Part shown: positions 12,922-38,159 of the stretch, piece by piece
Layout: the number at the start of each line of letters is the position of its first letter
Position numbering within the stretch: the stretch's first letter is position 1
Assembly: GCA_944324435.1 (NCBI GenBank)
Contig: CALUWH010000016.1
Span: forward strand, 1 to 43,905
DNA length: 43,905 nt
Source of the DNA: Candidatus Gastranaerophilales bacterium
GTDB taxonomy: Bacteria > Cyanobacteriota > Vampirovibrionia > Gastranaerophilales > Gastranaerophilaceae
Direction: 5' to 3'
Notes under the pieces: generated by a model
Seen by the model: the letters and a program-made list of their open reading frames with translations, nothing else
What the model was told of the DNA's origin: nothing
Databases searched by the model: none
Translations under genes and position numbers: made by a program

Positions 12922-13404
12922 ATGACTATTGCAATTTATCCGGGCAGTTTTGATCCGATTACATGCGGACATATTGATATACTAAAAAGCGGTGCTGAAA
13001 TCTTTGATAAAGTTATTATTGCTGTTTCATACAATATCAATAAAGAGGGATTTCTGCCCATCGACATACGCGTTAAGCTTATTGAGGAGGCTGTTAAAGA
13101 TATTCCTAACGTAGAGGTTGACAAGTTTGAAGGACTGACTGTAGAGTACGCAAAAAAACGCGGAGCTTCTGTACTTTTGCGCGGTCTGAGAACATCTTTT
13201 GACTTTGAATACGAACTCCAGCTTTCTCAGACAAATCACTCTCTGTATAACGATATAAAAACAGTTTTTTTAATCACCAAGCCTGAATTTAACTTTATAT
13301 CATCTTCCTGCGTGCGTGAGATTCTTCTCAACAGGGGGGATATTTCTAAATTCGTGCCCGAATCTGTTTGTAAATACTTAAATGCTACACATGGTATTTC
13401 GTAA
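12922..13404 (+). CDS. coaD: Pantetheine-phosphate adenylyltransferase
   Basis: CoaD transfers AMP from ATP to 4'-phosphopantetheine, the penultimate step of coenzyme A synthesis. The 160-aa length is standard. Motifs are YPGSFDPITCGHIDI (with the T/HxGH nucleotide-binding motif), VLLRGLRTSFDFEYELQL and the C-terminal ISSSCVREIL. The frame also opens with GTG at 12913, but AAGG spacing and family alignment favour the ATG at 12922. Its 3' end overlaps the 3' end of the convergent CheA gene by 20 nt. Confidence 0.97.
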   Translation: MTIAIYPGSFDPITCGHIDILKSGAEIFDKVIIAVSYNINKEGFLPIDIRVKLIEEAVKDIPNVEVDKFEGLTVEYAKKRGASVLLRGLRTSFDFEYELQLSQTNHSLYNDIKTVFLITKPEFNFISSSCVREILLNRGDISKFVPESVCKYLNATHGIS

Positions 13405-16333: not shown

Positions 16334-16358
16334 GAGTCTGCCCCTTTTGTCGTATTAA

Positions 16359-17405
16359 TTAGCTTTCCACTGCCGAATTTTTTATCTCAATGGACAATTC
16401 ATTCAATTTTGAGATTTTTTCTGCGTTTGCCCCTATTGTCTGTACCAAATTTTCCGTTATATGCGAATTTTCTTCGTCAATACTGTTAAGACGTTCTATA
16501 ATTTCGTTTTGCTTTTTAGCATTCTGATTCAGTACATCAAGAGATTCCAGAATTTCTTTAATCAAATTCAAAAGGATTTCAGAGTTAGAAGAAACATTAT
16601 TAATATCCTTTACAACCGATTCAATTTCTTTTGAGCCTTCTTCCGTTGCCATGACGGTAGAATTTGTTGTGTACTGGATATTGCTTGTTAAAGATGTTAT
16701 TTTTGTAATCGCCTGTTTTGACTCATCAGCAAGTTTTCTGATTTCACCGGCAACAACCGCAAAACCTTTGCCGTGTTCGCCGGCACGAGCCGCTTCTACA
16801 GCAGCGTTAAGCGCGAGCATGTTTGTCTGTTCCGCAATGTCATCTACTACGTTAATTGTATTGCCGATTTGTTGAGAATGCTCTGAAAGTTCAAGGATCA
16901 ATTCCGCAATCATTTGAATCTTTTGTCTTAAAACAAGCATTTTCCCCGCATTAGAAGATATTGATTCATGCTCTTTCTCGGAGAAATTGATAGATTGAGT
17001 AACCTGTTTTTCTGTGTTTTTTGAAGTAACAACAGCCTCTTCGGAGAGTCCTTTCAGTTTTTCTATAAGAGCGGAAATGCTTCTTGTATTAGCAGCCAGA
17101 TGTTCAAAAGTACGCTTCTGCAGTTCTATTGAACCCATGATTTCCTCGCTGGTTTCCGCAAGTGAATCGGACTGAGTTGTCATGGATCTCTTAATAGTTC
17201 TTAATATCCATTGTTTTGTAACCAGATGCGCCGTAACATTAAGAACAACGATTATTGTCAAAAATACAAACACGTCATAAGGCAAAATCTCCTTCATTCT
17301 TGCAAAAAACATAAACAAGATGCATGTTATAACCAGCATTATTATATCTATTGAACATTTTAAATTAAATTTCTGTTTCAATCCTAAATTCCAATCGTTA
17401 AGCAC
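16359..17405 (-). CDS. Methyl-accepting chemotaxis protein without a large sensor domain
   Basis: A 348-aa receptor. Two membrane helices near residues 20-36 and 43-63 are separated by only a few residues, so there is no periplasmic sensor domain; sensing must be in the membrane, via a partner or cytoplasmic. The rest is the coiled-coil signalling domain with the conserved hairpin tip [20 protein letters not shown] and [18 protein letters not shown]. The start is GTG at 17403-17405 with AGGAG 7 nt upstream. It is the first gene of the unit with cheA and is divergent from the REC-GGDEF gene. Confidence 0.93.
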
Positions 17406-17488
17406 TTCTTCTCTCCTATAGTTTTTTTTGAGTATTTATTATATAATCATTTTATAATAAAATTGACAAAATTGGAATATATAAATAT

Positions 17489-18946
17489 ATGGCAGCAAAG
17501 ATTTTATTGGTAGAAGACAGTGATACTCAATTAAAGTTTCTAAAAGAAGGGCTTGTTCAGAAGGGGTTTGAAGTAGAGACAGCAACAAACGGCGCGGAAG
17601 GATATAAAAAAGTATTTGAATTTCTTCCCGATTTGGTGGTGTCGGATATTCTCATGCCGGTAATTGACGGATATCAGCTTTGCCGCATGATAAAAAATGT
17701 GGATGAAACAAAAAAAATCCCGGTCATACTTTTGACCGTGCTTGATAAAAAAATTGACAGTTTTTGGGGGAAGAAGGCCGGAGCACAGCTGTTCTTATCT
17801 AAATCCATTGATTTAAATGAACTGGCAAAGAATATAAATGCTACTGTCAGAAGATATCCGGTAAGCGAAGAGTATAAGGCTGCGATGCTTCAAAAAAACA
17901 ACAATGATAACTCTGCACAGACCAGATTAAATACTATTCTTAATGATTTGCTGCTCAAGTCGGTTTTTGCAAATGAATTCAGGAATTTGAGCGACTTTTT
18001 GAACTATGAAAGAATTTTGGTTGAAAAATTATTTTCACTTTTAAGTTCGTTTGTAGAGTATCACGTTGCAGGAATTTTCTTTGCCTCTCCAGATGACTTT
18101 GCAGAAAATATCGTGTATTTGGATACGCTTGGCAGAAACCTGCCTAAAAGCGTTCTTTCCGATATCCAGTATGATTTTTTCCGTAAAATGGAAGAATACA
18201 GGCCTCTTAAAAATTCTAAATTTGAAGTCGTCAGAATGCTTTTGGGCAACGAACTTGACTACAAGTTTACGGATTTAACATCAAAAATCATAATACCTTT
18301 AATTTTTGACAAAAAATTGATTGGCGGTATCTGTTTCTACACACGTCAGGATATGGACTACGCTTCGTTCAGATATTTCGATATTATGATAAGCGAACTG
18401 CTTGCAATCTTCAAGATGAAATATCAATATACTGAAAAGGAATTTATGTCGGTTTTGGACGGCCTTACAGGACTTTATAACAGACGCCAGTTTGAAATCA
18501 GCTTAGAGCAGGAACATAACCGTACAAAAAGACATCCTTCGGACTTCAGTCTTGCGATACTTGATATTGATTTCTTTAAAAAGGTTAATGACACACACGG
18601 ACACCAGTACGGCGATTATGTACTAAGGACTGTTGCAGACTTGATGAAAACAGCCTTTAGAAAAACCGACTTGTTGTACAGGTACGGAGGCGAAGAGCTG
18701 GTTATGATTATGCCGGAGACAAATATTGAGGGAGCTGTTATTCCCGTCCAGAGGCTGAGAAGGATGGTTGAAGAATACGATTTTAATTATAACGGTGTAA
18801 AAACAAAAGTAACCGTCAGTATCGGGCTTACTATGAACTACCCGGAATTTAATACCCCGGCAGATATTCTTAAATCAGCGGACGATGCTTTATATAAAGC
18901 TAAAGAGAGCGGAAGGAACAGGGTAGTATTATATGAACAGCAATAG
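17489..18946 (+). CDS. Response regulator with diguanylate cyclase output (REC-GAF-like-GGDEF)
   Basis: A 485-aa PleD-like regulator that would make cyclic-di-GMP. The receiver (1-125) has the acidic pocket VEDSD and phospho-acceptor D53 in VSDILMPVIDGY. A GAF-like alpha/beta region spans about 160-300. The GGDEF domain spans about 315-480, starting LDGLTGLYNRRQF, with active site YGGEEL near residue 399 and an inhibitory I-site RKTD five residues before it, so both catalysis and product inhibition look intact. CheA at 13385 is the obvious phosphodonor. No clear RBS precedes the ATG, but TATAAT lies about 30 nt upstream. It overlaps the CheW gene by 14 nt. Confidence 0.94.
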   Translation: MAAKILLVEDSDTQLKFLKEGLVQKGFEVETATNGAEGYKKVFEFLPDLVVSDILMPVIDGYQLCRMIKNVDETKKIPVILLTVLDKKIDSFWGKKAGAQLFLSKSIDLNELAKNINATVRRYPVSEEYKAAMLQKNNNDNSAQTRLNTILNDLLLKSVFANEFRNLSDFLNYERILVEKLFSLLSSFVEYHVAGIFFASPDDFAENIVYLDTLGRNLPKSVLSDIQYDFFRKMEEYRPLKNSKFEVVRMLLGNELDYKFTDLTSKIIIPLIFDKKLIGGICFYTRQDMDYASFRYFDIMISELLAIFKMKYQYTEKEFMSVLDGLTGLYNRRQFEISLEQEHNRTKRHPSDFSLAILDIDFFKKVNDTHGHQYGDYVLRTVADLMKTAFRKTDLLYRYGGEELVMIMPETNIEGAVIPVQRLRRMVEEYDFNYNGVKTKVTVSIGLTMNYPEFNTPADILKSADDALYKAKESGRNRVVLYEQQ

Positions 18947-19934
18947 TTATATAGAACAGAAGAAAAATACTCATCTGTATTTCAAGCTCGGTGACAATAA
19001 ATATGCAATCAATTCCGACAACGTGCTCGAAATTATGAAGCTTCCGGCACTGGAATATCCTCAAAAACTCCCCAATAATGTGCTGGGGCTTTTAAAGTAC
19101 AATAATTTCGTTATTAACGTTGTAGATATCAGATTTTATCTTAATATGGAAGTCACTCCGTACAATATTAACAATGAACTTTTGATTGTAAAAACGGATG
19201 AAATTATTCTCGGGTTAATAACGGATAAGATAATCGGAATACAGTCGTTTAATTCTGCCCTTACAGATGCACTTCCTTTTGTTGATAACAAAACGGTTGT
19301 TGATTCCATCTATAAGTACAAAGACGATACTATATATATTATTAACATCTATGCCTTGGAAAATATCCTGAAACAGCATGATGTTTATTCTGACATAAAT
19401 ATTCCGTCTTTATTTCCAAAAGATGCAAACTCTCTTGCAATAATGAACGAGAGAACAACGGCAATCCTTGATAAAGCCGGTTTAAAACTTGCCTCTGCGG
19501 AACTGTATGTAAAAAATAAATATATTTCATTGAATTTGAATGACGATTACTATTGTATTGCGTTAGATTATGTAAGAGAGGTATTGAAAGATTCTGTGAT
19601 TACGAAAATACCGGGACTGCCCGATTTTATTGCCGGGGTTATGCACCTGAGAGGGGATTATATCACAGTTATAGACCTAAAGCGATTTTTAAACCTTCCG
19701 GCGTCAAAACAAACCCCTGATAAAAATCCGGTAATCATTATAAAATGTAATGAACTCAAACTTGCTCTTTTAATAGACAAGATTAATGAATTGTTTGAGT
19801 TTCAGGAGAACAACGCTGCAGAAAACGGCGAGGGATATTATTTGAGTGAATTTATGTACAATAATATTTTGTACACCGCTTTGAATATTGAAAAGATATC
19901 ATCTGACAAAAAGATAATTATAACCGATATGTAA
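18933..19934 (+). CDS. Double CheW adaptor protein
   Basis: A 333-aa protein made of two CheW domains in tandem. The first (about 10-150) begins HLYFKLGDNKYAINSDNVLEIMKLP with LGLLKYNNFVINVVDI. The second (about 175-330) has YYCIALDYVREVLKDS and IAGVMHLRGDYITVIDLKRFL, the best-conserved copy. CheW couples receptors to CheA; a duplicated CheW could bridge two partners or link arrays. It overlaps the REC-GGDEF gene by 14 nt and so is translationally coupled to it. Confidence 0.9.
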   Translation: MNSNSYIEQKKNTHLYFKLGDNKYAINSDNVLEIMKLPALEYPQKLPNNVLGLLKYNNFVINVVDIRFYLNMEVTPYNINNELLIVKTDEIILGLITDKIIGIQSFNSALTDALPFVDNKTVVDSIYKYKDDTIYIINIYALENILKQHDVYSDINIPSLFPKDANSLAIMNERTTAILDKAGLKLASAELYVKNKYISLNLNDDYYCIALDYVREVLKDSVITKIPGLPDFIAGVMHLRGDYITVIDLKRFLNLPASKQTPDKNPVIIIKCNELKLALLIDKINELFEFQENNAAENGEGYYLSEFMYNNILYTALNIEKISSDKKIIITDM

Positions 19935-24900: not shown

Positions 24901-24928
24901 TTGAAATTTCACCAACTTATGCTATACT
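24901..24928 (+). promoter_or_regulatory. Candidate promoter of the fliD-like gene
   Basis: TTGAAA (24901-24906), a 16-bp spacer and TATACT (24923-24928) preceded by TG form a good sigma70-type promoter. No sigma28-type flagellar promoter was seen. The leader to the GTG start would be about 160 nt. Confidence 0.5.
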
Positions 24929-25097
24929 ATATATATAAATAGTAGTAACATATAGAATGGAAGAAATATCAGGTTTAATCAAGGAAGCGCCAAAACACTT
25001 ATAAACTCATATACATACACCCCTTTAGACACCTAATATTTACCCCCCTCACAAGCTATGTTATTACGTGGTAAGGTACAGAAAACAGGAAACAATT

Positions 25098-28000
25098 GTG
25101 AGCATCTCATTCAGCGGATTGGCATCCGGCTTAGACACATCATCTTGGGTTGAATCCCTTGTATCTCTTAAACAGGCGAAGATAGATTCGTATGAGGAAG
25201 AGAAGGATGTTGTTGCGCAGATGCAGGACACATTGGCGAGTATCAAGTCATTTTTCACGTCATTCAGGGGTGTAATAGAGAAGGTAACGGACGCTAAGTT
25301 CGGTATAGCGTCGATGGACATATTTGCTCAGAACTTAGCTACATCGAGCAATTTGGATGTGCTGACTGCTTCGGTAACCAGTGAGGCAGAGGAGGCGACT
25401 TACAATGTTGGTGTTGATCAGTTAGCGACGGCAACGGACGCAGTGAGCCAATACACATATACTACTACTATAGTTCAGACATCAATAGCTTCGCTTGATT
25501 CCAAGCTTATCAACCTGGGTCTTAACATCAATGACACAGGCAGCCAGATAGGAGTGACCGTAAACGGAGTGGAGCATGGTATTATTCTTTACGAGAACGA
25601 CACGATACAGGATCTTATCGACAAGCTGCAGAACATTGGAGTTGATGCTTCGTACAATGAGGATACGGGTGTATTTTCAATGAACATCAGCGACAGTGAC
25701 ATCAACGACATAGACAACACAAACATCGTTGATGCCTTGCATTTGGAGGGGGTAAACGAGGGATACACGAGTAACAATTTGCAGATAGAGCATGTTGAAA
25801 CCATTTATTCTGACGCGACTGAATCGACGTTGTTATCGGAGCTTGGCGTAAATGCCGGCTTATTAACGATAGACGCGAACGATCAGAGTTACACGGTTAC
25901 TATTAAGAACAACACGACTATAGGTTCATTCGTTGCTGACTTAGAGAGCAAGCATATTGACGTAGATTTCACGGACGGTGTTTTAACGTTGGACAATGCT
26001 GTCATTTCTAACCAGGGAACTACTAACTTCCTCGACGCTCTTAACATGCAACAAGACGTCGCATCCCAAACCCAAACTTCTAACAACCTAAACTTCCAAA
26101 CCATTACAACTGACACCTCCGTCGCTACCGAAGATACGCTGCTCAAAGACCTCGGTGAAGGCATTAACTTCACTAACGGACAAACCATCATCTTCAAAAA
26201 CTCTAACAATGTCTACGATACCATTACCGTTAACCAAACCACCACACTCGGCGACATCATCGCCGAACTCAACAACAACGGACTAAACGCACAACTTTCT
26301 CAAGACGGTATTCTCTCCATTCAAGGAGGCGAAATCACCGGAGGCACCTTCGACGCCATTAATCTACTCAACCTTAACGAAACCCCCATGACCGCCATGG
26401 CATCAGGGAACTCTCTTTCCCACACAATAGAATTCAACTCCGTTATTACAGCAAATACCAAAATCGTCGATGAATTCGGCGCTAAACAAGGCTACTTCCT
26501 CGTTACCGACGCCAACGGTAATGAACACTATACCAAAATATACTCCGGACAAACCTTCCAAAACCTAATAGATACTCTTAACTCATACGGTATTAGCGCA
26601 TCCCTTTCACAAGAAGGTATTCTGTCCGTGCAAGGAGGTACACTACAATCCCTCACTGACTCACAAGTTCAACAACTCGTTCACAACAAAACCATAAACG
26701 AAACAAACGCCAAGCTCATTAAAGGCTCTGATTTCGTTGATATTGTTTTCAAAAATACCGACTTCAACGCCAGCGAAGCTACTTCTGACCCACTTACATA
26801 CACCCTCACACAAACGCTTAACGCCTCCCTTACTACTACTCTCGCTCAACTCGGTATTACCAAAAACGGTAACATTAACGTCGATGGAAAAAATATTAGA
26901 ATTACTACATCCATGTCAATCCAAAATCTCATCGATACTCTCGCCGCTAACAACATTCAAGCAAACTGGGACGCTCAAAACGCTACACTCACCATTAACG
27001 CTAAAGTCCAAGACCCCAACAACACCAACTTCGTCAACGCTCTCAACCTCCAAGAAACCGTTACAGAATACTACGCCTCCTCCGACAGAATATTCCAAGC
27101 TGTTACTAATACTCAACAAGCAACCGAAAGCACCAAACTCGACCAATTCGGTATCACTAACTCCCTCTCTAACGCACAAAGAACCGTTAAATTCTACAAC
27201 GCTAACGGTGATTTACTTTCCCAAATCACAGTAACTCAATCCTCAACACTTAGCACCCTCATCTCCGCAGCTAATAAGGCAGGGCTAAACGCCTCACTAA
27301 ACAACGGCATCCTTACAATCGAAGACGGATACATCTCAAACGACATTCTTCAAGACTCGCTCGGACTAGAATACAACCCGGGCTCGAGTTTCGCCCTCGG
27401 TAATATTATAACCACAACTGAACTCCAAGCCGCTACTCTCGATTCCTCACTCAATGACATCATAGCCGCCCTCGGAAACCAAAGCCTCGTTGCGTCCGGT
27501 TACACCCTCTCCTTCAACGGGACTGCCCTTAATGTCTCCCAAAACTCCACAATTAACGATATTATTAACCTAATTCAACTCAATGGAGGCTCCGCATCTA
27601 TCGACTCTTCCGGTAGACTCTCTATCTCAGGAGGCACACTTTCAGGCTCCGTTGCTAACGCCCTCGAAATCACACAAACCATCACCACTACTAAAGTCAA
27701 CGCCACCGGTGATAAAACTCTCATGACCAAACAAGAAGTCTTTGCCGACAGATCCACTACATTAAAACAGCTCGGTATTAACACCTCCACAATGGTCATT
27801 AACAAAAACGGCGCCGCTATTAAAACTATTACAGTACAAGCAACAAATTCCCTCGGTGACCTCTTCGACACCCTCGCAGCTAACGGTATTGAAGCTTCTA
27901 TTGCCGATGGTGTTATAACTCTGTCATCCCTGCAAAACCTCTACGTCTCAGGTAACCTTGCTAACTCCCTCGGTATTAATACATTCTCTAACACCCAAAC

Positions 28001-31000
28001 ACTCAACACCTCAGCCTCTTCAACCATTGCCGTCAGCTACACAGATACCATTATTGCTGATATAACCTCGAAACTCGGTGACGTAGGAGCCATAAAAAAT
28101 ACCTCAGACAACCTCCTTATCTTTGACTCAGATAACAATTGTATCGCTACAATATCCTCACTCACAACCCAATCCTCAATAGGTGATATGTTCGCGCTGC
28201 TCAATAACTACGGGTTCTCTACTAATATCTACAACGGTACCATATCAATCTACTCCGACCAGGGACTATACATCAAAGGGAATATCGCGACCAATCTCGG
28301 CATCAACGCTACTTCCACAGGTACCGTCTACACTACTCTCGGTAACGCCATCACCTCCTCCATTCAAATCTCTTACTCTCAAAACGATAACATCTCACTT
28401 GAAGACAAGCTCTCCAAAGTTATTTCCATCACAGGTAATAACGTCATTCAAGTTACAAACCAAAACGGTAACCACATCGCATACATTACCGTAAACCAAA
28501 ATACCACTTTCGCACAACTCTTCAACTCCCTCAATAACTACGGTATTAACGCCTCCCTCTCCGATAACTACATCGACCTTCAATCCAACGATAACAATGT
28601 TATAAAAGACTCCTCCGGTAATGTTCTCTCTCAACTCGGTATCTCACTCTCATCGACCACAGTCACTACTACTATTGGTATGACATCCTCCTCTTCCTCA
28701 CAAATTAAATACTCCCAAAACGTCTCAAACCCGGCAGATGGTTCAACCACTATGGCCCAGCTCGGACTCACAGGTAAAACCCTCACCATTAACCAAACCT
28801 CCGGAGGGACTGTCAACATGACCTTCGCTGCCAACGCAACACTAGACTCCCTCTTTAACACCCTCGCTGCCTACGGTATCAACGCTTCTATCTCCAACGG
28901 TGTCATCTCCATCGCTTCTACTAACGGGAACTATATCTCGGGTACACTACCGACTGCACTGGGAATATCCGTTATAAACGGATCCACATCAGGTACCATT
29001 GGGCAATCGACCTCTTCTTCTGGGGCGCTTACAGCCCACGAAGGAGAATCTCCGGCAAACACCTCTAACACTCTTGCAGAAATCGGTATCACAGGAAACC
29101 AAACGCTGGTTATTAACCAGACCAACGGAAGCTCGAATGTTACAATTACCGTCACCGACTCGACGACCCTTAACTCCATTTTCAACACACTTTCTACATA
29201 CGGCATAAACGCCTCTATGTCTAACGGGATTATTACTCTCGACTCTGAATCCGGCGCGTACATTTCAGGCTCGCTTGCGACTGCTCTCGGTTTCGACGTG
29301 CTCTCATTCGTCGCAAACAAAACAACCGGCACATCCATGACCTCCAACGCGCCAATTACATACACTTCAACAGGTAACGTCATTGCAACTGCTGACACTA
29401 CCCTCGGGGAACTAGGGATGAAGTCCTCAGGCTCCGGCTCTTCCGACAGCATACCTTTCCTTAAATCCATCACCAGAAAAACCAGAGAAGAGGCAGAAGC
29501 TGCAGGGTACATCTGGGTTACATCAGCTGCGCAGCTCAACTCCCTCATGCACAACAGTGAAAGCCCGACAACACTCATTATGCTCGGTACCGATATCGAC
29601 CTCTCAGGGATTGAATGGAATCCGGCGAGTTTCAGTGGAACCTTTGACGGTAACGGGTATACCATATCTAATCTTACGATTACTGAAGAGATAAAGAGCG
29701 GTAGTAACCCAAACTATATTGGGTTTATAAATGGAGGCAATATCAAAAATGTCAGGTTTGAAAACGCAAGTATTTCTGTTACTGCTGACTACTATGGGGC
29801 AACCCCTGAAATAGGAATCATATCAGGAAGAGGAAGCGACATCGACAACTGTATTGCCTCAGGAAGCATTAATGTACAAGTTACTAATGTTGTCTGGGGA
29901 TATATAGGTGGGATTGCTGGAAGTAGTGTTAGTTATGATATATCTAACAGCATAGCGGATGTTGATATTAATGTTAATAATAATACCAGCATAAATTCAG
30001 TCTATGTTGGCGGAATTACAGGAGAGATGTGGTTTGGTACTATATCAGACTCGCACACCTACAGCGATATTGTTGTTACCGGAAACACATCCCGGAGATT
30101 TATCGGTGGGGTAGCAGGACGTGTTATGGCAGCTGACAGTCTTACTATCTCTAATGTTGTTGTCGGTGGATCTTATACAAGAGTCAATGACACCTCTAGC
30201 GGCGGCTCAGGGATTATTGCAGGAGTATTAGAAGGATATGCTGGTGGGCCTTACGAAACTCTGAAGGTACAAGGAACATACTACGATTCCTCCCTAGCTG
30301 ATGATGACTGGGTCGGATATGAGTCTACAGATACCGACGACACTGTCACCGCTGATCCTACCCTTGCACTCTCAGGTGCAAGCATTGGCAGCTACAACGT
30401 CGGAAACATCCATACCGAGGCAGGCTCAGGTACCGGAAACGGGATACTCGATATCTACTCAAGCACGGGAACGCTTGTCACCTCTCTGAACATCGAACCC
30501 GATGACACACTTCAAGACGTATTTAACCAGCTTGCAGCCTACGGTATAAACGCCTCTATCAACAACGGGATTATATCCCTCACTTCCACTAACGGCAACT
30601 ACATTTCAGGCTCCGTGCCCAAACTCCTCGGCATCGAAACCAAACAAATCACAGTTAACACCTCTCACGCTGCAACAAGTACATCCACTGCGCCAATCAC
30701 CGCGACCTCAACTAACGTCGTTACCAAAGACGCTACACTCGAACAAATCGGAATCTCCGACGAAATCTCCGACGGTTTTATTAACCCGATTAACAGAATG
30801 ACACAGCAAGAAGCTGTAGCCGCAATGTATACCTGGGTTACGTCCGCAAGCCAGCTGCAAAGCATCCTAAGCTCACCCTCCGGAAGCTATGCTAGAATCA
30901 TGCTGGGAGCTGATATTGATCTGTCCGGGATAAGCTGGAACTCTTCTGGCCTTTTCCAAGGCACCTTCGACGGCAACGGGTACACTATATCAAACCTCTC

Positions 31001-34000
31001 AGGTTCTGCTTTCATAGCTCGAACCAACGGCGCAACTATCAGGAATGTTAAATTCGAAAATGCAAATATTACACGAGATTTTAATAGCTATTATGGTATA
31101 GTTACAGTAGCCGATCAAGGCAACTCAACCTTTGAAAACATCGTCATTGACAGCTCATCAAGGATTTCTGCCTCCTACACAGGTGGAATATCTGTTGCCG
31201 GAAGTACTGTAGGCTCACTTGCTGCAAGCAGCACCATTGCTGATTCTGTCTCGTTTGCTAGTATTAATTATAGTTCTATCTTCTCAACAGACTTTGTAGC
31301 TGTTGGCGGCCTCGCAGGAAACGCGCAAGGTACAATCACTAACTCCGTTTTCGGGGGGAAACTTAACATTTCAGCAAGAAACGCTAAAGTCGGAGGTATT
31401 GCAGGTTGGGCCAACGGGACACTCAGAAACAACAAATCCTACGGACAAATAAGTGGAAGCGGCAATAATACAATCACAGGCGCCATTGCCGGTTCTGTCT
31501 ACTCCTCCGCAATTCTCGCAAGCAACGCCTACTACTCTACCGGCGGTCTTGACCCGTTCGGAAACAAAACCGCAACCTCTACTGAAGCCTTCGTCAACCC
31601 CTCTATCCTCGGTATGGGACTCGGATTCGGCGTGTTCACGAAAGACGGCGACCTCTTGGGCGAAGTCACCGTCTCCTCAAGCACTACACTCGATAACATT
31701 ATTACACAGCTCTCTAACTACGGCATCAACGCAACCCTTAAAAACGGAGTCCTTTCCCTCTCCTCCTCTAGCGGAGCAGTCGTAGCAGGCAATATTCCGG
31801 AAGCCCTCGGTATCCAACTTAACTACAACTCCGCCGCCGCAGGCGGAGGAGGCACTTCCTCAGGCCCTACCACTACCACTACAGCAGTATCACAAACTTC
31901 GTATACGGATATTGTGACGTATGGTGGCAGTGAGCTCAACCTAGAGACCGAAATATTGTGGCTAAGTGATGATTTATATGATGAGAGTACGAAGAACTAT
32001 ACCTTAACAGTATCAAACTCCGGAACTACAACGACTATAACGGTTGATTCCGATAGAACCCTCGGCGACCTCCAGTCAGAATTCTACAGAGCCGGTATGT
32101 CTCTCACCCTCGACGGGAAAAAAGTCACACTCTCCAGCCTCCCAACCGCCAACGCGTACCTCGTCAGCGGCCCCTCCGTACTCCTCGACGCACTCAAAAT
32201 CGGAGCCGGTGAAGGTATCTCCTACACCGTCACAACCTCCGGAGGCGGAGGAGAAACCCCCGATGCAGGACCGCTCTGGTCAAATACCGACTCAAACACC
32301 CTCGTCGGACGAGACCTCGTTACTACAAGCTCATCACTCAGCGACATTGGCGTTAATTCCACACAATACATTACAGTCGTTCAAGGCGGTACCCAAGACG
32401 TCATTACCCTCGACTCCTCAGCAAGCCTCGGTGATATCATCGACAGGCTCTCTGAATACGGTATCACTGCCTCACTTAATAACCAGCAGTTCACCATCAC
32501 AGGAAATTCCACAGGCTCTTTTGTCAAAGGTATGTCCACATCCCTCAGAAACGCACTGAAACTCAATGTCGGACAAGGTTATACATACAACGTATCCTCC
32601 TCCACTCAAACAGGTAACGAAACCTCAGGAAGCATTACAACTACAGGTACCGGTGAAGTTAACGCAAAAGGCTCAACCCAACTCAGCGAACTCGGAATTA
32701 ACTCCAGCCAATATATTACCATTAAACAAAACGGCACTACCCAAGTAGTTACGCTGGGATCCTCAGACTCCATTAACGACCTCATAAGCAAACTCTCCAA
32801 CTACGGAATATCAGCCTCTCTCTCCAACGGAAGAATTGCGATAGAAGGCAGCGAAATAAGCTTCGTGACCGGTATGTCCGCAGGACTCGCTAATGCCCTT
32901 AATGTCACCGCAGGAAAAGGTCACTCCTACACCATCTCCACTGAAACCGTTACATCTAACTCTACAACCTCGCTCCAATTCTACACCCAAGGAGCCTCCA
33001 AAGCAGTCTCTACCTCCACAACCCTCGGAGAGCTGGGCATCTCAGGCACGTCGTCCATGACGATAAACCAGGGAGCCCTCGGCGCCGCAACCGTACAGTT
33101 CACGGAATCCGACACAATAGGCGACATCATCGAACAAATTAACCTGCTCGGCGGAGGACACCTCACCGCAAGCCTGAGCAGCAATAAGTTTAACATAACG
33201 GCAGATGGTACAGATTACTACGTCTCATTCCTCTCCTCCAAACTCTCTGACGCACTCAAACTCGGCGCTACTTACAAAACCTCCACGGTCTCAAAACCAA
33301 CTAACTCAACTACATCAAACTACCTCTCCGTAACCAAAAATGAAACCATAACAGCAACCGCAGCTACCTCCCTCTCCTCCATCGGTGTCACCTCTAATCA
33401 GTATATTACAGTCAGACAAGACGGTACCCTCAGAACTATTACCGTAGGCGCCTCAGATACCATCGGCAGCCTTATCTCTAAACTCGCTAAATACGGTATT
33501 AACGCCTCTATAAGCGACGGCTTCCTGACCGTACAAGGCTCAGAAAACAGCTCTATTACCGGTATATCCTCCACCCTCGCCAACGCAATTAAACTCTCCG
33601 CGTCAGGCTCCGGTAACTCCTACACTGTTATAACTGAAACTACCTACAAAAACTCCGACTCCAAAAACCTCGGCTCAATAGCATCCACTAAAACTCTCAA
33701 CTCCGATACAACCATGAGCCAACTCGGGTTTAACTCCTCAGGAAATATTACTGTCGTTCAAAACGGTACTCAATACCAGGTCGCCGTCGATGGAAGCAAA
33801 ACCCTCGGCGATATCCTCACCGCACTCTCCGCATACGGTATCGCAGGCAGTATACAAAACGGAAAACTTACCCTCTCCCCAAGCTCTAACGCCTTCATCC
33901 TCGGAATGACCTCCGGAGTCGCTACAGCCCTCGCACTCAAAACAGGCAAAGGTAACTCATACTCAACTTCCTCTAAACAAACATATACTAACTCAACTTC

Positions 34001-37000
34001 CAAAAACCTCAATAAAAACGGTACTAACCTCATCCTCAACGAAGATACCGTTCTTAACAAAATTAACGGATTCACCTCCGGCGGTAAGCTCGTTATTCAC
34101 CAGGATAACGGCTCTAACGTCACTATCTCCATCGCAGCTACCCAAACACTTAAAGACTTCTTTAACCAAATAGCCGCCTACGGATTAACTGGTAACGTCG
34201 ACTCCACAGGCAGAGTTACCATCTCCGCTTCAGGTAATACATACCTGCAAGCCGTATCAGGCGGTACTAACCTGCTCTCAGCTCTTAAACTCTCTAATCC
34301 AACCCGCTCCACAGTCTCCGAGTACGATAACTCAGACTCCTCCCAACTCTCTTACACCCAAACCATCGCTGCGCAAAACTCCACTACTCTCCAAAATCTC
34401 ATAGATAGCAGTAATAATAAACCAACTTTCAACGGAAATAATATTACACTCGTCGTACAAACTACCGCTAACGGTACGACTGCTAATAATACACTCGTTT
34501 TCTCCAAAACACAAACCCTCCAAGATGTATTCAATACACTCCAAAACTACGGCATACAAGCACAAATAGACGCCAGCGGTAAAATCTCTCTCTCCTCCGA
34601 CTCTCTGTCTAATTTTAACCTCTCAGGTAACCTATCATCCTTCCTCCTCGGCTCATACTCAAAACAATACACTACCCAAGTTACTAATAACCAATCCGCT
34701 ATACTAACAAATACCGTTATCTCCGCCATGACCGACGATAATACCCTCGCAGAACTCGGCATTACTAACGGTACTGTTAACATCTTTAAAAACGGACAAA
34801 ACGCAGGCTCGTTTAATCTCAACACCATAAAAACAATCGGTGACTTTAGAAATATCCTCGAACAATACGGTTTCACTACATCCCTCGATAACCAGGGAAG
34901 ACTCTCCGTTTCCAGCGCCGACGGTAACTACCTCACCGCATCTTCTTCCAATATCCTCACCAAACTCGGACTCAATGACTTTACCATACTCGACGCTAAT
35001 CAACAATCCTCCAACCTCACCCAAACTACCGTATCTAACCCGACTATATCACTTAACGCAACACTAAAAGACCTCACTAACTCCGCAGGCACCAACCTCG
35101 GTATTACCAACGGGAATGTCTACGTATACAACAACGGAGTTAGAAATACCGTATACATCGATAACAACATGACACTCCAGGAACTCTCCGATAAACTCGA
35201 ACAATTCAACATTAACCTCAGCCTCGCTGACGGTAAAATCTACCTCGAAGGTATCGGTAACTCATATATCACTACAGACGGACTCTCCTCCGCCTCAAAC
35301 ATCCTCGATAAAATCGGACTCGATAACTGGGAGTACGAAGCAACTTCTACTTCTAAACCTCTCTCCTTCGTCCAATCCTCAGACCAAATTATTACCGAAA
35401 ATATTAAAATTACCGACCTCCAAGATAAAAGCGGTAACAACCTCAATATCTCGCAAGGTACTTTTAATATCTATCAAAATGGAGTTAAACACACAGAAAC
35501 TATCGATAGTGAAACTACCGTTAATGACCTCTTTAACATGCTCGAAAAATACGGTATTAATGCCAGTATCGCATCTAACGGAGCCATCTCTCTCTCCGCA
35601 ACTGGTAACGCTTACATCGAAAACGGCTCCTCAAACATAGCTTCTAAACTCTTCGATGACTGGAAGTTCTCAAATACCTACACCAGCAATACCCTCTCCA
35701 TCACCCAAACCGATACCGTATTCATCGACCAAAATACTAAACTCGCCGATATTAACGAAGGTACGTTTACTCCAGGTGTGTTTACCCTCGTTAACAACGG
35801 CGTACAAACGAACATAACTGTTAACGCTAACGATACTATAGGTACATTCATTGACCAACTCCAAATGCACGGGTTCGATACCGTTATCAACGAAAACGGT
35901 CAACTCATCGTTCAAGCTCAAGGTGACTCTTACCTCAAAAACTACAACGGAACGAACGCATCTAATATCCTAGATATCCTCGGACTTAACCAAAGCGACT
36001 GGATTAATACCAGCACTTACGACAGCAATACTCTCAACGTTATTAAAACTAATACCTTCGATACTGCCGCTACTCTCGATACTAAACTATCACTCCTCGG
36101 AGTTACTACAGGTGAATACTACATATACAACAACGGTGTTAAATACACCGCACTCATCTCCTCCGACGAAACCATTCAATCCCTCATCGATACCCTCCAC
36201 CAGTTCGGTATAGAAACAAGCCTCACAGGAGACTCTTCTAGCTCCATCCTCACTATCCTCGGACAAGGCGACTCATACATTCAAACTTCCAACAGCGCCA
36301 CCAACGCCTCTAACGTCGTGGACGTACTCTTTAACAACTCCACTGATACTAAATACCAATACTCATCAGATAAACAAACCTCTGAAATCGTTACTACATA
36401 CTCTAACGCAACAGAAGATACTCTCCTAAGCTATTTCGATACACCTTGGGGAGGATCTACCCTCAAAGCTGAAGGTCAACTCTCCGTTACTGTCAACGGA
36501 GTTGACAGCGTTATTAATATTACTAAAGATGAAACCATCGGCTCTCTGCTTAATAAATTCAAAGCCCTCGGACTCGAAGCTACTCTATCCGACGGACAAA
36601 TCATGATCCAAAGCGGATATGATACTTTTACTATCAATTCCGCAGGTACTACTTCAAGCATCATTAACCCTAACGCTAACTTCAATCTTAAATTCAACGA
36701 TGACCTCGGAGGTTACCTCGCTAGCGTCGATACCGTTATGGCTACTACTACCACCGTCGAAGTGAGAACCCTCTCCGTTGCTAACTACGCTGATAACAAC
36801 ACTAAACTCGGAGACCTCAATATCTCATCAGGTACCCTCAGTATATATAGAAACGGACAAAAAGCAACTATTCAAGTCGATGAAAATGATACCTTTAACC
36901 AGTTCAGAGCTAAACTCGCCTCTGCTTTCTCCGATGTCGATATTAAATTCGAAGACGGATTCCTCCAAATCTACTCCAAAGACGGAAATAAAATAGAAGC

Positions 37001-38159
37001 AGGTGCTACTACCGACTCCTCTAACTTCTCTGCTGTTACAGGAATTACAAACCAGGAAGACGGCTCCGTTAAAAGCGCCAGAGCGCTCTTCAAAGTTAAC
37101 AACGAATCCGTTATCACTAACTCAGGACTCTTCAGAAACGGCAACGTTACTCAAGGTACATTCACCATCGGTAACGCTACTTTTACCATCGATAACTCCA
37201 CTACTCTAAACGATATTATCTCCCAAATTAACAACAACGACGACGCTAATGCTACAGCATACTGGGATAATATCGACGGTAAACTCGTTATTCAATCCAG
37301 AACCACAGGGGCTGCATATATTAACATAGAAGCCGGGACCAGCAACTTTACCGATATTATGGGATTCACTTCCTCTGAATGGAACGCAGATGGCTCTATT
37401 AAACTTACAAGACTCCTCGCCGACGCTCAAGACATCGGGCAGAACGCCAGATTCTCAATTAACGGTACTAACTACACATCTACTTCAAACACCATTACAA
37501 GCGATGTCTCAAGAATTAACGGACTTACCATTAACCTCAAAGGACTCTCTGAAGGCGAAACCGTTACTCTTACCATAGAAAAAGACAAAGAAACCGTCGC
37601 AAGCGCTCTACAAGATGTCGTTGATTCTTACAACGAACTTATGAAAAACGTCGATGAAGCCATCGCTGCTAACGGAGACCTACATAGCGAAACTACTCTC
37701 AAACTCATCAGAAACCAGCTCCGTAACATGATGACAAGCTCCGATATCGGCACCACCGTATTCAGAAACCTCGATGCTATTGGTATCTGTGTCGACGCTG
37801 CAAGCGCAAACAACATCGATACTAACAATATTATTAACCTATCCTTCGATAAAGATAAATTCCTCGAAGCTTACGAAGCCGACGACGAAGCCGTTAAAGC
37901 TCTCCTTGTAGGCAGCGAAAACAACACCGGTATATTTAATAAAGTTGAACAACTCCTCGAATCCGCACTTACTTCAGTGTCAGGATATTTCGACTCCGCT
38001 GACAGATCCTTCGACAGAGAAATCGAAAGGCTCGACAACAAAATCGTTAACGCTACTAAAGACATGCAAAGGTACAGAGAAAGACTCGAAAACAAATTCT
38101 CCGCTATGGACATGCTTATCGCTAACATGCAACAACAATACGCCTCGTTCCTCGTCTAG
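25098..38159 (+). CDS. fliD: Giant modular FliD-like protein with ~30 hook-IN-type modules and two GLUG inserts
   Basis: One open frame of about 4353 codons. Residues 1-105 match FliD N-termini (ISFSGLASGLDTSSWVE, then TYNVGVDQLA). The last ~350 match the FliD C-terminus: NARFSINGTNYTSTSN, a helical bundle with ETVASALQDVVDSYNELMKNV, and a final coiled coil SFDREIERLDNKI to MQQQYASFLV. Ordinary FliD caps are about 400-700 aa. Between are about 30 diverged modules of 100-130 aa with the pattern LxxLGI, a TIxV strand, TLxDLFNxLxxYGINASL, xxGxITL and YISG..ALGI, as in the flagellin hook IN motif. Two GLUG-type beta-helix domains (residues about 1448-1775 and 1892-2181) interrupt two adjacent modules. 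The start is GTG at 25098 with AGGAA 7 nt ahead; a frame from 25068 lacks an RBS. No other flagellar gene is in the window, so it may cap a filament or be a repurposed adhesin. Confidence 0.88.
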   Translation: MSISFSGLASGLDTSSWVESLVSLKQAKIDSYEEEKDVVAQMQDTLASIKSFFTSFRGVIEKVTDAKFGIASMDIFAQNLATSSNLDVLTASVTSEAEEATYNVGVDQLATATDAVSQYTYTTTIVQTSIASLDSKLINLGLNINDTGSQIGVTVNGVEHGIILYENDTIQDLIDKLQNIGVDASYNEDTGVFSMNISDSDINDIDNTNIVDALHLEGVNEGYTSNNLQIEHVETIYSDATESTLLSELGVNAGLLTIDANDQSYTVTIKNNTTIGSFVADLESKHIDVDFTDGVLTLDNAVISNQGTTNFLDALNMQQDVASQTQTSNNLNFQTITTDTSVATEDTLLKDLGEGINFTNGQTIIFKNSNNVYDTITVNQTTTLGDIIAELNNNGLNAQLSQDGILSIQGGEITGGTFDAINLLNLNETPMTAMASGNSLSHTIEFNSVITANTKIVDEFGAKQGYFLVTDANGNEHYTKIYSGQTFQNLIDTLNSYGISASLSQEGILSVQGGTLQSLTDSQVQQLVHNKTINETNAKLIKGSDFVDIVFKNTDFNASEATSDPLTYTLTQTLNASLTTTLAQLGITKNGNINVDGKNIRITTSMSIQNLIDTLAANNIQANWDAQNATLTINAKVQDPNNTNFVNALNLQETVTEYYASSDRIFQAVTNTQQATESTKLDQFGITNSLSNAQRTVKFYNANGDLLSQITVTQSSTLSTLISAANKAGLNASLNNGILTIEDGYISNDILQDSLGLEYNPGSSFALGNIITTTELQAATLDSSLNDIIAALGNQSLVASGYTLSFNGTALNVSQNSTINDIINLIQLNGGSASIDSSGRLSISGGTLSGSVANALEITQTITTTKVNATGDKTLMTKQEVFADRSTTLKQLGINTSTMVINKNGAAIKTITVQATNSLGDLFDTLAANGIEASIADGVITLSSLQNLYVSGNLANSLGINTFSNTQTLNTSASSTIAVSYTDTIIADITSKLGDVGAIKNTSDNLLIFDSDNNCIATISSLTTQSSIGDMFALLNNYGFSTNIYNGTISIYSDQGLYIKGNIATNLGINATSTGTVYTTLGNAITSSIQISYSQNDNISLEDKLSKVISITGNNVIQVTNQNGNHIAYITVNQNTTFAQLFNSLNNYGINASLSDNYIDLQSNDNNVIKDSSGNVLSQLGISLSSTTVTTTIGMTSSSSSQIKYSQNVSNPADGSTTMAQLGLTGKTLTINQTSGGTVNMTFAANATLDSLFNTLAAYGINASISNGVISIASTNGNYISGTLPTALGISVINGSTSGTIGQSTSSSGALTAHEGESPANTSNTLAEIGITGNQTLVINQTNGSSNVTITVTDSTTLNSIFNTLSTYGINASMSNGIITLDSESGAYISGSLATALGFDVLSFVANKTTGTSMTSNAPITYTSTGNVIATADTTLGELGMKSSGSGSSDSIPFLKSITRKTREEAEAAGYIWVTSAAQLNSLMHNSESPTTLIMLGTDIDLSGIEWNPASFSGTFDGNGYTISNLTITEEIKSGSNPNYIGFINGGNIKNVRFENASISVTADYYGATPEIGIISGRGSDIDNCIASGSINVQVTNVVWGYIGGIAGSSVSYDISNSIADVDINVNNNTSINSVYVGGITGEMWFGTISDSHTYSDIVVTGNTSRRFIGGVAGRVMAADSLTISNVVVGGSYTRVNDTSSGGSGIIAGVLEGYAGGPYETLKVQGTYYDSSLADDDWVGYESTDTDDTVTADPTLALSGASIGSYNVGNIHTEAGSGTGNGILDIYSSTGTLVTSLNIEPDDTLQDVFNQLAAYGINASINNGIISLTSTNGNYISGSVPKLLGIETKQITVNTSHAATSTSTAPITATSTNVVTKDATLEQIGISDEISDGFINPINRMTQQEAVAAMYTWVTSASQLQSILSSPSGSYARIMLGADIDLSGISWNSSGLFQGTFDGNGYTISNLSGSAFIARTNGATIRNVKFENANITRDFNSYYGIVTVADQGNSTFENIVIDSSSRISASYTGGISVAGSTVGSLAASSTIADSVSFASINYSSIFSTDFVAVGGLAGNAQGTITNSVFGGKLNISARNAKVGGIAGWANGTLRNNKSYGQISGSGNNTITGAIAGSVYSSAILASNAYYSTGGLDPFGNKTATSTEAFVNPSILGMGLGFGVFTKDGDLLGEVTVSSSTTLDNIITQLSNYGINATLKNGVLSLSSSSGAVVAGNIPEALGIQLNYNSAAAGGGGTSSGPTTTTTAVSQTSYTDIVTYGGSELNLETEILWLSDDLYDESTKNYTLTVSNSGTTTTITVDSDRTLGDLQSEFYRAGMSLTLDGKKVTLSSLPTANAYLVSGPSVLLDALKIGAGEGISYTVTTSGGGGETPDAGPLWSNTDSNTLVGRDLVTTSSSLSDIGVNSTQYITVVQGGTQDVITLDSSASLGDIIDRLSEYGITASLNNQQFTITGNSTGSFVKGMSTSLRNALKLNVGQGYTYNVSSSTQTGNETSGSITTTGTGEVNAKGSTQLSELGINSSQYITIKQNGTTQVVTLGSSDSINDLISKLSNYGISASLSNGRIAIEGSEISFVTGMSAGLANALNVTAGKGHSYTISTETVTSNSTTSLQFYTQGASKAVSTSTTLGELGISGTSSMTINQGALGAATVQFTESDTIGDIIEQINLLGGGHLTASLSSNKFNITADGTDYYVSFLSSKLSDALKLGATYKTSTVSKPTNSTTSNYLSVTKNETITATAATSLSSIGVTSNQYITVRQDGTLRTITVGASDTIGSLISKLAKYGINASISDGFLTVQGSENSSITGISSTLANAIKLSASGSGNSYTVITETTYKNSDSKNLGSIASTKTLNSDTTMSQLGFNSSGNITVVQNGTQYQVAVDGSKTLGDILTALSAYGIAGSIQNGKLTLSPSSNAFILGMTSGVATALALKTGKGNSYSTSSKQTYTNSTSKNLNKNGTNLILNEDTVLNKINGFTSGGKLVIHQDNGSNVTISIAATQTLKDFFNQIAAYGLTGNVDSTGRVTISASGNTYLQAVSGGTNLLSALKLSNPTRSTVSEYDNSDSSQLSYTQTIAAQNSTTLQNLIDSSNNKPTFNGNNITLVVQTTANGTTANNTLVFSKTQTLQDVFNTLQNYGIQAQIDASGKISLSSDSLSNFNLSGNLSSFLLGSYSKQYTTQVTNNQSAILTNTVISAMTDDNTLAELGITNGTVNIFKNGQNAGSFNLNTIKTIGDFRNILEQYGFTTSLDNQGRLSVSSADGNYLTASSSNILTKLGLNDFTILDANQQSSNLTQTTVSNPTISLNATLKDLTNSAGTNLGITNGNVYVYNNGVRNTVYIDNNMTLQELSDKLEQFNINLSLADGKIYLEGIGNSYITTDGLSSASNILDKIGLDNWEYEATSTSKPLSFVQSSDQIITENIKITDLQDKSGNNLNISQGTFNIYQNGVKHTETIDSETTVNDLFNMLEKYGINASIASNGAISLSATGNAYIENGSSNIASKLFDDWKFSNTYTSNTLSITQTDTVFIDQNTKLADINEGTFTPGVFTLVNNGVQTNITVNANDTIGTFIDQLQMHGFDTVINENGQLIVQAQGDSYLKNYNGTNASNILDILGLNQSDWINTSTYDSNTLNVIKTNTFDTAATLDTKLSLLGVTTGEYYIYNNGVKYTALISSDETIQSLIDTLHQFGIETSLTGDSSSSILTILGQGDSYIQTSNSATNASNVVDVLFNNSTDTKYQYSSDKQTSEIVTTYSNATEDTLLSYFDTPWGGSTLKAEGQLSVTVNGVDSVINITKDETIGSLLNKFKALGLEATLSDGQIMIQSGYDTFTINSAGTTSSIINPNANFNLKFNDDLGGYLASVDTVMATTTTVEVRTLSVANYADNNTKLGDLNISSGTLSIYRNGQKATIQVDENDTFNQFRAKLASAFSDVDIKFEDGFLQIYSKDGNKIEAGATTDSSNFSAVTGITNQEDGSVKSARALFKVNNESVITNSGLFRNGNVTQGTFTIGNATFTIDNSTTLNDIISQINNNDDANATAYWDNIDGKLVIQSRTTGAAYINIEAGTSNFTDIMGFTSSEWNADGSIKLTRLLADAQDIGQNARFSINGTNYTSTSNTITSDVSRINGLTINLKGLSEGETVTLTIEKDKETVASALQDVVDSYNELMKNVDEAIAANGDLHSETTLKLIRNQLRNMMTSSDIGTTVFRNLDAIGICVDAASANNIDTNNIINLSFDKDKFLEAYEADDEAVKALLVGSENNTGIFNKVEQLLESALTSVSGYFDSADRSFDREIERLDNKIVNATKDMQRYRERLENKFSAMDMLIANMQQQYASFLV
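29436..30424 (+). other. GLUG-type beta-helix domain 1 nested in the fliD-like gene
   Basis: This part encodes a segment starting after LGELGM with FLKSITRKTREEAEAAG and WVTSAAQLNSLM, then DIDLSGIEWNP and GTFDGNGYTISNL. GLUG-like rungs follow (IGGIAGSS, VGGITGEM, IGGVAGRV). The same layout occurs in surface adhesins and IgA-protease-like proteins. The middle is more G-rich than the flanking modules. The interrupted module resumes at GNGILDIYSSTG. Confidence 0.75.
30770..31640 (+). other. GLUG-type beta-helix domain 2 nested in the fliD-like gene
   Basis: The second insert starts after LEQIGISDEIS with INRMTQQEAVAAMYTWVTSASQL, parallel to the first, then DIDLSGISWN and GTFDGNGYTISNL and rungs VGGLAGNA, VGGIAGWA and AIAGSV. 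It enters its module at the same place as the first insert; the module resumes at GFGVFTKDG. Confidence 0.75.

Follow-up and report, generated by a model that had tools for sequence, protein, structure and literature searches.

A protein of 4,353 amino acids with well-supported ancestry in the flagellar cap protein FliD is encoded in the window, by which we mean the whole 43,905-nucleotide stretch of DNA that was analysed. The protein retains both ends of FliD around a hugely enlarged head, coexists with an ordinary FliD in the same genome, and is a member of a family-wide class of giant FliD proteins rather than a single oddity. We lean towards the view that it is an alternative flagellar cap carrying a long, looped and variable arm, probably adhesive.

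The giant frame and its locus

The host assembly (1.95 Mb in 50 contigs, 98.9% complete) includes the window as its contig 16. The frame begins with GTG and runs without an N or an internal stop; given the base composition of the window, the probability of meeting no stop across 4,353 codons is about 10^-92. The giants of relatives start at the same place, with either GTG or ATG. The promoter candidate listed in Table 1 lies ~170 nt upstream of the gene, and TG precedes its second hexamer. Inside the gene, the largest unit of any DNA repeat family is 64 nt and the copies are at most 79% identical; repeats that are so short and so diverged make an assembly collapse impossible. The single frame of about 4350 residues that was claimed in the preliminary description was thus borne out, and its architecture is shared with many relatives.

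Table 1. Features of the giant FliD gene and its upstream region, in window coordinates
Feature	Position	Strand	Basis
Sigma-70-like promoter candidate, TTGAAA-16-TATACT	24901..24928	+	10/12 matches, consensus match only
AGGA, possible ribosome-binding site	25087..25090	+	7 nt before GTG, read from sequence
Giant FliD paralogue, 4,353 aa	25098..38159	+	Open frame, FliD_N and FliD_C at ends
FliD_N, N-terminal half of D0/D1 leg and first D2 strands	25125..25433	+	Pfam, E 4e-14, own-genome search
Array of 30 detectable hook-IN/FliD-head-type modules	25488..37340	+	Self-profile, predicted fold
Insert 1, adhesin-like repeat region (residues 1450-1775)	29445..30422	+	Homologous to insert 2
Insert 2 (residues 1893-2175)	30774..31622	+	Same kind and same within-module position as insert 1
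Part collinear with ordinary FliD, from its module 1 to the C-terminus (residues 3893-4352)	36774..38153	+	47% identity
FliD_C, C-terminal half of D2/D1 and D0 leg	37437..38135	+	Pfam, E 2e-35

The giant gene is located outside any flagellar cluster, and the neighbours that it has in the window are not retained beside the giants of relatives; proB was the sole recurring neighbour, adjoining the giants of one relative (L043/L106). A cluster encoding a CheA hybrid kinase, a receptor, a GGDEF response regulator and CheW lies upstream, at window positions 13385-19934, and is not part of any recognised flagellar operon.

FliD ends and a single point of expansion

Both termini had been read as those of FliD in the preliminary description, and the profile search agreed: FliD_N (PF02465) matched residues 10-112 with 53 bits against a cut-off of 24.8, and FliD_C (PF07195) matched residues 4114-4346 with 123 bits against a cut-off of 25.4. 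The NCBIfam equivalog models of FliD did not recognise the giant above their cut-offs (the best, PRK07737, gave 70.6 bits against 444), and the ordinary FliD of the same genome failed them as well (best 130 against 469); these models therefore miss the lineage as a whole.

The ordinary FliD, a protein of 585 amino acids encoded on contig 3, aligns to the giant by BLASTP in two blocks. Its residues 8-125 correspond to residues 1-125 of the giant, and its residues 126-584 to residues 3893-4352, the latter over 466 alignment columns. As the two blocks are collinear, the giant is a FliD that has gained ~3,770 residues at a single site in its head, directly before the first head module of the ordinary protein. 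The expansion had been put earlier at roughly 3500 residues, and known FliD proteins were said to be several-fold smaller. The giant is about seven times as long as its own genome's FliD, and the matching NCBIfam models span 440-673 amino acids; the size comparison covered the phylum sample and the literature.

The module array and its inserts

A profile built from the giant's own repeats, with a threshold of E<1e-3, detected 30 modules between residues 131 and 4081 at a median spacing of ~112-113 residues, each consisting of a core of ~80 amino acids and a linker of ~30. The best identity of any module to another in the same protein ranges from 27 to 48%. The same profile matches both modules of the ordinary FliD; counted in this way, the ordinary FliDs of the genus have exactly two modules, and complete giants of the window's type have 8-31. 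No single module of the window reaches the Pfam family Flagellin_IN (PF07196), which is matched by 14/110 three-module stretches from the window and its relatives (best E 5e-8) and by the second module of the canonical FliD (E 0.005). Of the roughly 30 hook-IN-type modules that had been described, the number and their non-identity stood; the hook-IN label is indirect for the window's own modules, coming from the three-module stretches and the canonical FliD's second module. No recognised ligand-binding site was found in the modules. Pfam matches to RL10P_insert, CBS, OTU1_UBXL and ubiquitin inside the array were set aside as summed sub-threshold repeats or common beta-grasp-like shapes rather than homology.

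For structure prediction, window residues 2735-3075, which comprise three modules, were aligned with 109 three-module stretches of relatives. The modules were mostly predicted with pLDDT >90 and the linkers with <50 (pTM 0.40), a model in which the array would resemble beads on a flexible string. In a Foldseek search with this model, Helicobacter pylori FliD was the top match and the sole one below 0.001. When the chains were re-aligned, the top rows were FlgK (Z 7.3), the FliD heads of E. coli, Salmonella, Serratia and Campylobacter (Z 6-7) and then flagellins, such that the nearest solved structures to a module are FlgK, the D2 domain of FliD and the outer domains of flagellin, at Z about 5-7. 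Nearly all of the top rows were flagellar proteins. The Z values are moderate, but homology of the modules does not depend on them because the direct alignment to ordinary FliD establishes it. A canonical FliD of the family was predicted as a complete FliD (Z 21 against the Salmonella cap). The check by fold prediction that had been proposed, run on the three-module stretch, thus matched FliD head domains; a phmmer search against the sequences of solved structures gave no match.

Two extra module starts, near residues 1430 and 1878, are each interrupted by an insert of ~300 amino acids, after which the remainder of the module follows. Insert 1 interrupts its module past the first helix and has a weak match to GLUG below the cut-off; insert 2 has weak matches, all below cut-off, to Peptidase_M26_N (1.5e-4), a pectate-lyase-like adhesive domain (0.03) and GLUG (0.07). 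For these families, the best score was 21.5 bits against the curated cut-off of 27.7 (Peptidase_M26_N), and the inserts are, with a weak resemblance, adhesin-like in kind and are not assigned to the GLUG, M26 or pectate-lyase-like families. Insert matches were found in 9 of 24 complete giants, where all of them (37/37) fell at relative positions 0.20-0.65, mostly just past a module's first helix. The giant FliD of one relative (G015) also contains an acyl-carrier-protein domain (PF00550, E 2.7e-13, with a DSL serine motif; L034:7062-7364, minus strand) flanked by segments of insert; such a carrier domain is surprising in a flagellar protein.

Distribution and phylogeny

One or two giants are carried by 24 of the 34 sampled genomes of the genus, most of which also carry an ordinary FliD; some of the giant frames in these genomes are cut by contig ends. 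In the remaining ten, the giant is either dispensable or was missed in incomplete assemblies. Among 386 genomes of the phylum, FliD_C frames of more than 1,000 amino acids were found solely in the window's family, where at least five genera have them, and the named relatives of the gene come from assemblies of Candidatus Gastranaerophilales or Melainabacteria. The homologue search for long proteins with FliD_N and FliD_C that had been suggested for the window returned giants of ~1,300-6,600 amino acids in the genus and its sister genera, together with one more divergent frame of 11,061 amino acids. In three cases (L042, L043 and L062), giant FliD genes lie in tandem, a very long one beside one of ~1,300-1,400 amino acids, and in two others (L088 and L092) the gene is split into two overlapping frames, which may reflect sequencing error, a natural frameshift or decay.

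In a tree of the joined ends, the giants group as a single clade (100/99), next to that of the genus's ordinary FliDs (100/100). The ordinary FliD of a sister genus (L024) adjoins both clades at a fork whose order the tree does not settle, and the giants of another genus, g31, are nested in the giant clade. By these two placements, the duplication predates the genus.

The divergent relatives reach 11,061 amino acids in genus g39, a sister genus in which this protein is one of several ultra-giants. Its gene (G383:C5:16004-49186, minus strand) was read as a single frame over two adjoining sequence stretches (L053+L054), and it contains recognisable modules and many adhesin-like inserts. Its FliD_C match is weak but significant (E 5e-10), and the profile search of this protein detected no FliD_N; for a relative of 6,511 amino acids, from another genus, a weak match to FliD_N was obtained (E 4e-7). 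As far as these profile matches go, the FliD label of the ultra-giants would rest mainly on the C-terminus.

Conserved ends and a variable middle

Identity between giants is distributed in a U-shape. Over 69 pairs of complete giants whose ends share at least 60% identity, the mean identities by tenths of length were 0.66, 0.46, 0.35, 0.30, 0.29, 0.31, 0.38, 0.52, 0.61 and 0.68; the pairs are not independent, and the global alignments from which these averages derive can blur the middle. Matching modules without regard to order gave 0.73 at one end, 0.43 in the middle and 0.76 at the other end, and since the shape is the same, it is not an alignment artefact. Both ends are conserved and collinear, and order is kept among relatives.

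The closest pair of giants, L097 and L099, has a DNA identity of 92-96% at the ends and of 91% in the ordinary FliD. The value of dS is 0.11-0.29 in the outermost tenths and at least 1.6 or saturated across the middle half, a step best explained, from the sequences compared, by replacement of the middle through recombination. For the tail of the window's giant against its closest relative, dN/dS is ~0.04-0.26 with dS near saturation. The low dN/dS, which shows purifying selection, and the recombination step in the middle together argue for a functional protein.

Other flagellar genes

Genes for flagella have been described in some members of this order (PMC4040986), and the host genome encodes seven flagellins and one FliG, plus FlhA and FliP. 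There are two FlhA-type export gates and a third, C-terminal-only FlhA-like protein (C12:664-2655, C11:2-403 with C18:2-1681, and C5:48672-49709), as well as two FliP genes to the one FliG. Almost every genome sampled from the order has at least two FlhA-type genes. A second export system dedicated to the giants was considered and rejected because the extra FlhA is order-wide and also present in genomes without giants. Giant flagellins are found in the same genus, as proteins with Flagellin_N of ~1,340-1,800 amino acids (G008:C15:17977, G015:C24:221 and G003:C74:16077).

Possible function

The gene encodes a duplicated FliD in which a single-point insertion expanded the head from 2 to ~30 tandem modules. 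The giant chain would pass through the flagellar export channel and take up its fold once outside. In or on the cap, the two ends would come together to form the D0/D1 leg typical of FliD, and from this leg the module array would run out and back as one long, flexible loop of beads. Since both chain ends return to the leg, the middle of the loop should lie farthest from the filament, and this predicted farthest part coincides with the region of divergence, inserts and exchange. Being the most divergent part, with adhesin-like inserts and recombinational exchangeability, the middle is most likely a variable binding surface, which would face mucus, plant fibre or other cells from the flagellar tip. 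Routine filament growth would be left to the ordinary FliD; with that protein and seven flagellins also encoded by the genome, the giant may be reserved for some of the filaments or may take over from the ordinary cap at a late stage. The export of the giant, its location at the flagellar tip, the geometry of the loop, adhesion and its target are inferred.

The native cap is a pentamer whose outer plane is formed by D2-D3 (PMC12221982). The D2 and D3 domains of FliD are dispensable for filament assembly and interchangeable between species, compatibility residing in D1 (PMC8533109), and so a giant with an intact D0/D1 and an enlarged head could still cap. A role as a mucin adhesin has been reported for FliD, though with the caveat that binding was not demonstrated directly, and a syntrophic fermenter's FliD, in recombinant form, binds methanogens (PMC4009794). 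An adhesive, variable arm at the tip is thus the most likely function. The suggestion in the preliminary description of a very long filament tip or adhesin stalk remains the best reading, and the conserved ends and variable middle add to its support. Several observations count against a cap-borne arm: an unfolded chain of 4,353 amino acids is estimated at more than 1 micrometre and would be a heavy load on the export channel, the gene lies outside the flagellar clusters, the modules are without a recognised ligand site, the resemblance of the inserts to adhesins is weak, and no giant was seen in ten of the 34 sampled genomes of the genus. A stronger proposal, which we hold tentatively, is that of a new class of surface organelle, a flagellar tip with megadalton looped arms made of the FliD head domain, the farthest part of which is a recombining cassette. 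If true, binding specificity would vary by way of the cap in gut-dwelling, non-photosynthetic relatives of cyanobacteria.

The FliD ends may instead be an export and anchoring tag, the giant then being an adhesin that is either shed or retained at the cell surface instead of being built into the cap. We regard this as unlikely. The ordinary FliD is retained, so that capping does not need the giant, the gene is outside the flagellar clusters, and the ultra-giants of the sister genus keep a weak FliD_C and a weak or unrecognised FliD_N, as if capping had been relaxed; however, in giants of the window's type both halves of D0/D1 have their full length and rank with the best-conserved parts, the C-terminal helix included. 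A divergent, recombining middle is also a signature of antigenic or phage escape, and instead of a binding arm the giant cap could be a bulky, variable brush that shields the flagellum from phages or host antibodies, but a handful of copies per tip would leave the filament uncovered and the adhesin-like inserts suggest binding, making this explanation quite improbable.

A role as a filament junction, spacer or decoration, like that of FlgK/FlgL or the giant flagellins, is in our judgement very improbable. The modules are as similar to the outer domains of FlgK and flagellin as to FliD, and relatives do possess giant flagellins, whereas the ends match FliD and not FlgK, FlgL or flagellin, and the giants are a clade within FliD. 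Misassembly, fusion or a decaying pseudogene might be suspected, the source being a metagenome assembly and the giants of the relatives L088 and L092 being broken into overlapping frames. Against this, the gene lacks long or near-identical repeats, dozens of independent relatives exist, order is conserved, and dN/dS is well below 1; with the minute chance of so long a frame, we consider an artefact or collapse ruled out for practical purposes.

Relation to known proteins and significance

The protein that the giant most resembles is FliD (HAP2) itself, with which it shares FliD_N and FliD_C, the D0/D1 legs, and head modules alike in fold and ancestry; it differs in its length, in having ~30 rather than two head modules, in coexisting with an ordinary FliD, and in a middle that is variable, recombining and insert-bearing. 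Giant flagellins (PMC6248924) are likewise flagellar axial proteins with a strongly enlarged, surface-exposed middle, but those are flagellins of more than 1,000 amino acids that build thick filaments, whereas the protein here is a paralogue of the cap, exceeds them several-fold in size and contains a tandem array. The giant adhesins, namely the ice-binding adhesin 5irb, SiiE 2yn3 and the Giant proteins of A. kunkeei (PMC12863079), are also very long tandem-domain chains with distal binding regions, and 5irb and 2yn3 appear as weak Foldseek matches to the module model. They have no flagellar cap ends; in the giant FliD, both ends anchor and the middle is the presumed tip. The Flagellin hook IN motif (PF07196) is a comparable module family of flagellar proteins, with single window modules falling below its threshold. 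FliD of Campylobacter jejuni, with an extra domain D4 (PMC7316729), is a precedent for a domain inserted into FliD, but there a single globular domain is placed in D1, whereas the giant has ~28 additional modules at one position of the head. Enlarged flagellins (PMC6248924) and single extra FliD domains (PMC7316729) are thus already known. The literature searched held no cap paralogue with ~30 head modules and no FliD of such size; the class is absent from papers on FliD with 'giant' or 'flagellar cap', from a survey of huge proteins, and from the paper on Gastranaerophilales flagella.

FliD caps are usually regarded as small, conserved assembly factors. Across this family, a duplicated cap appears to serve as the base for very large arms that vary rapidly, with a divergent relative attaining 11,061 amino acids, and the giant FliD would be a natural test of the load limits of the flagellar cap and export channel. 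The combination of conserved ends and an exchanged middle makes the idea of display at the tip directly testable. In a common, little-cultured group of gut bacteria, the giant FliD is a candidate colonisation or partner-binding factor.
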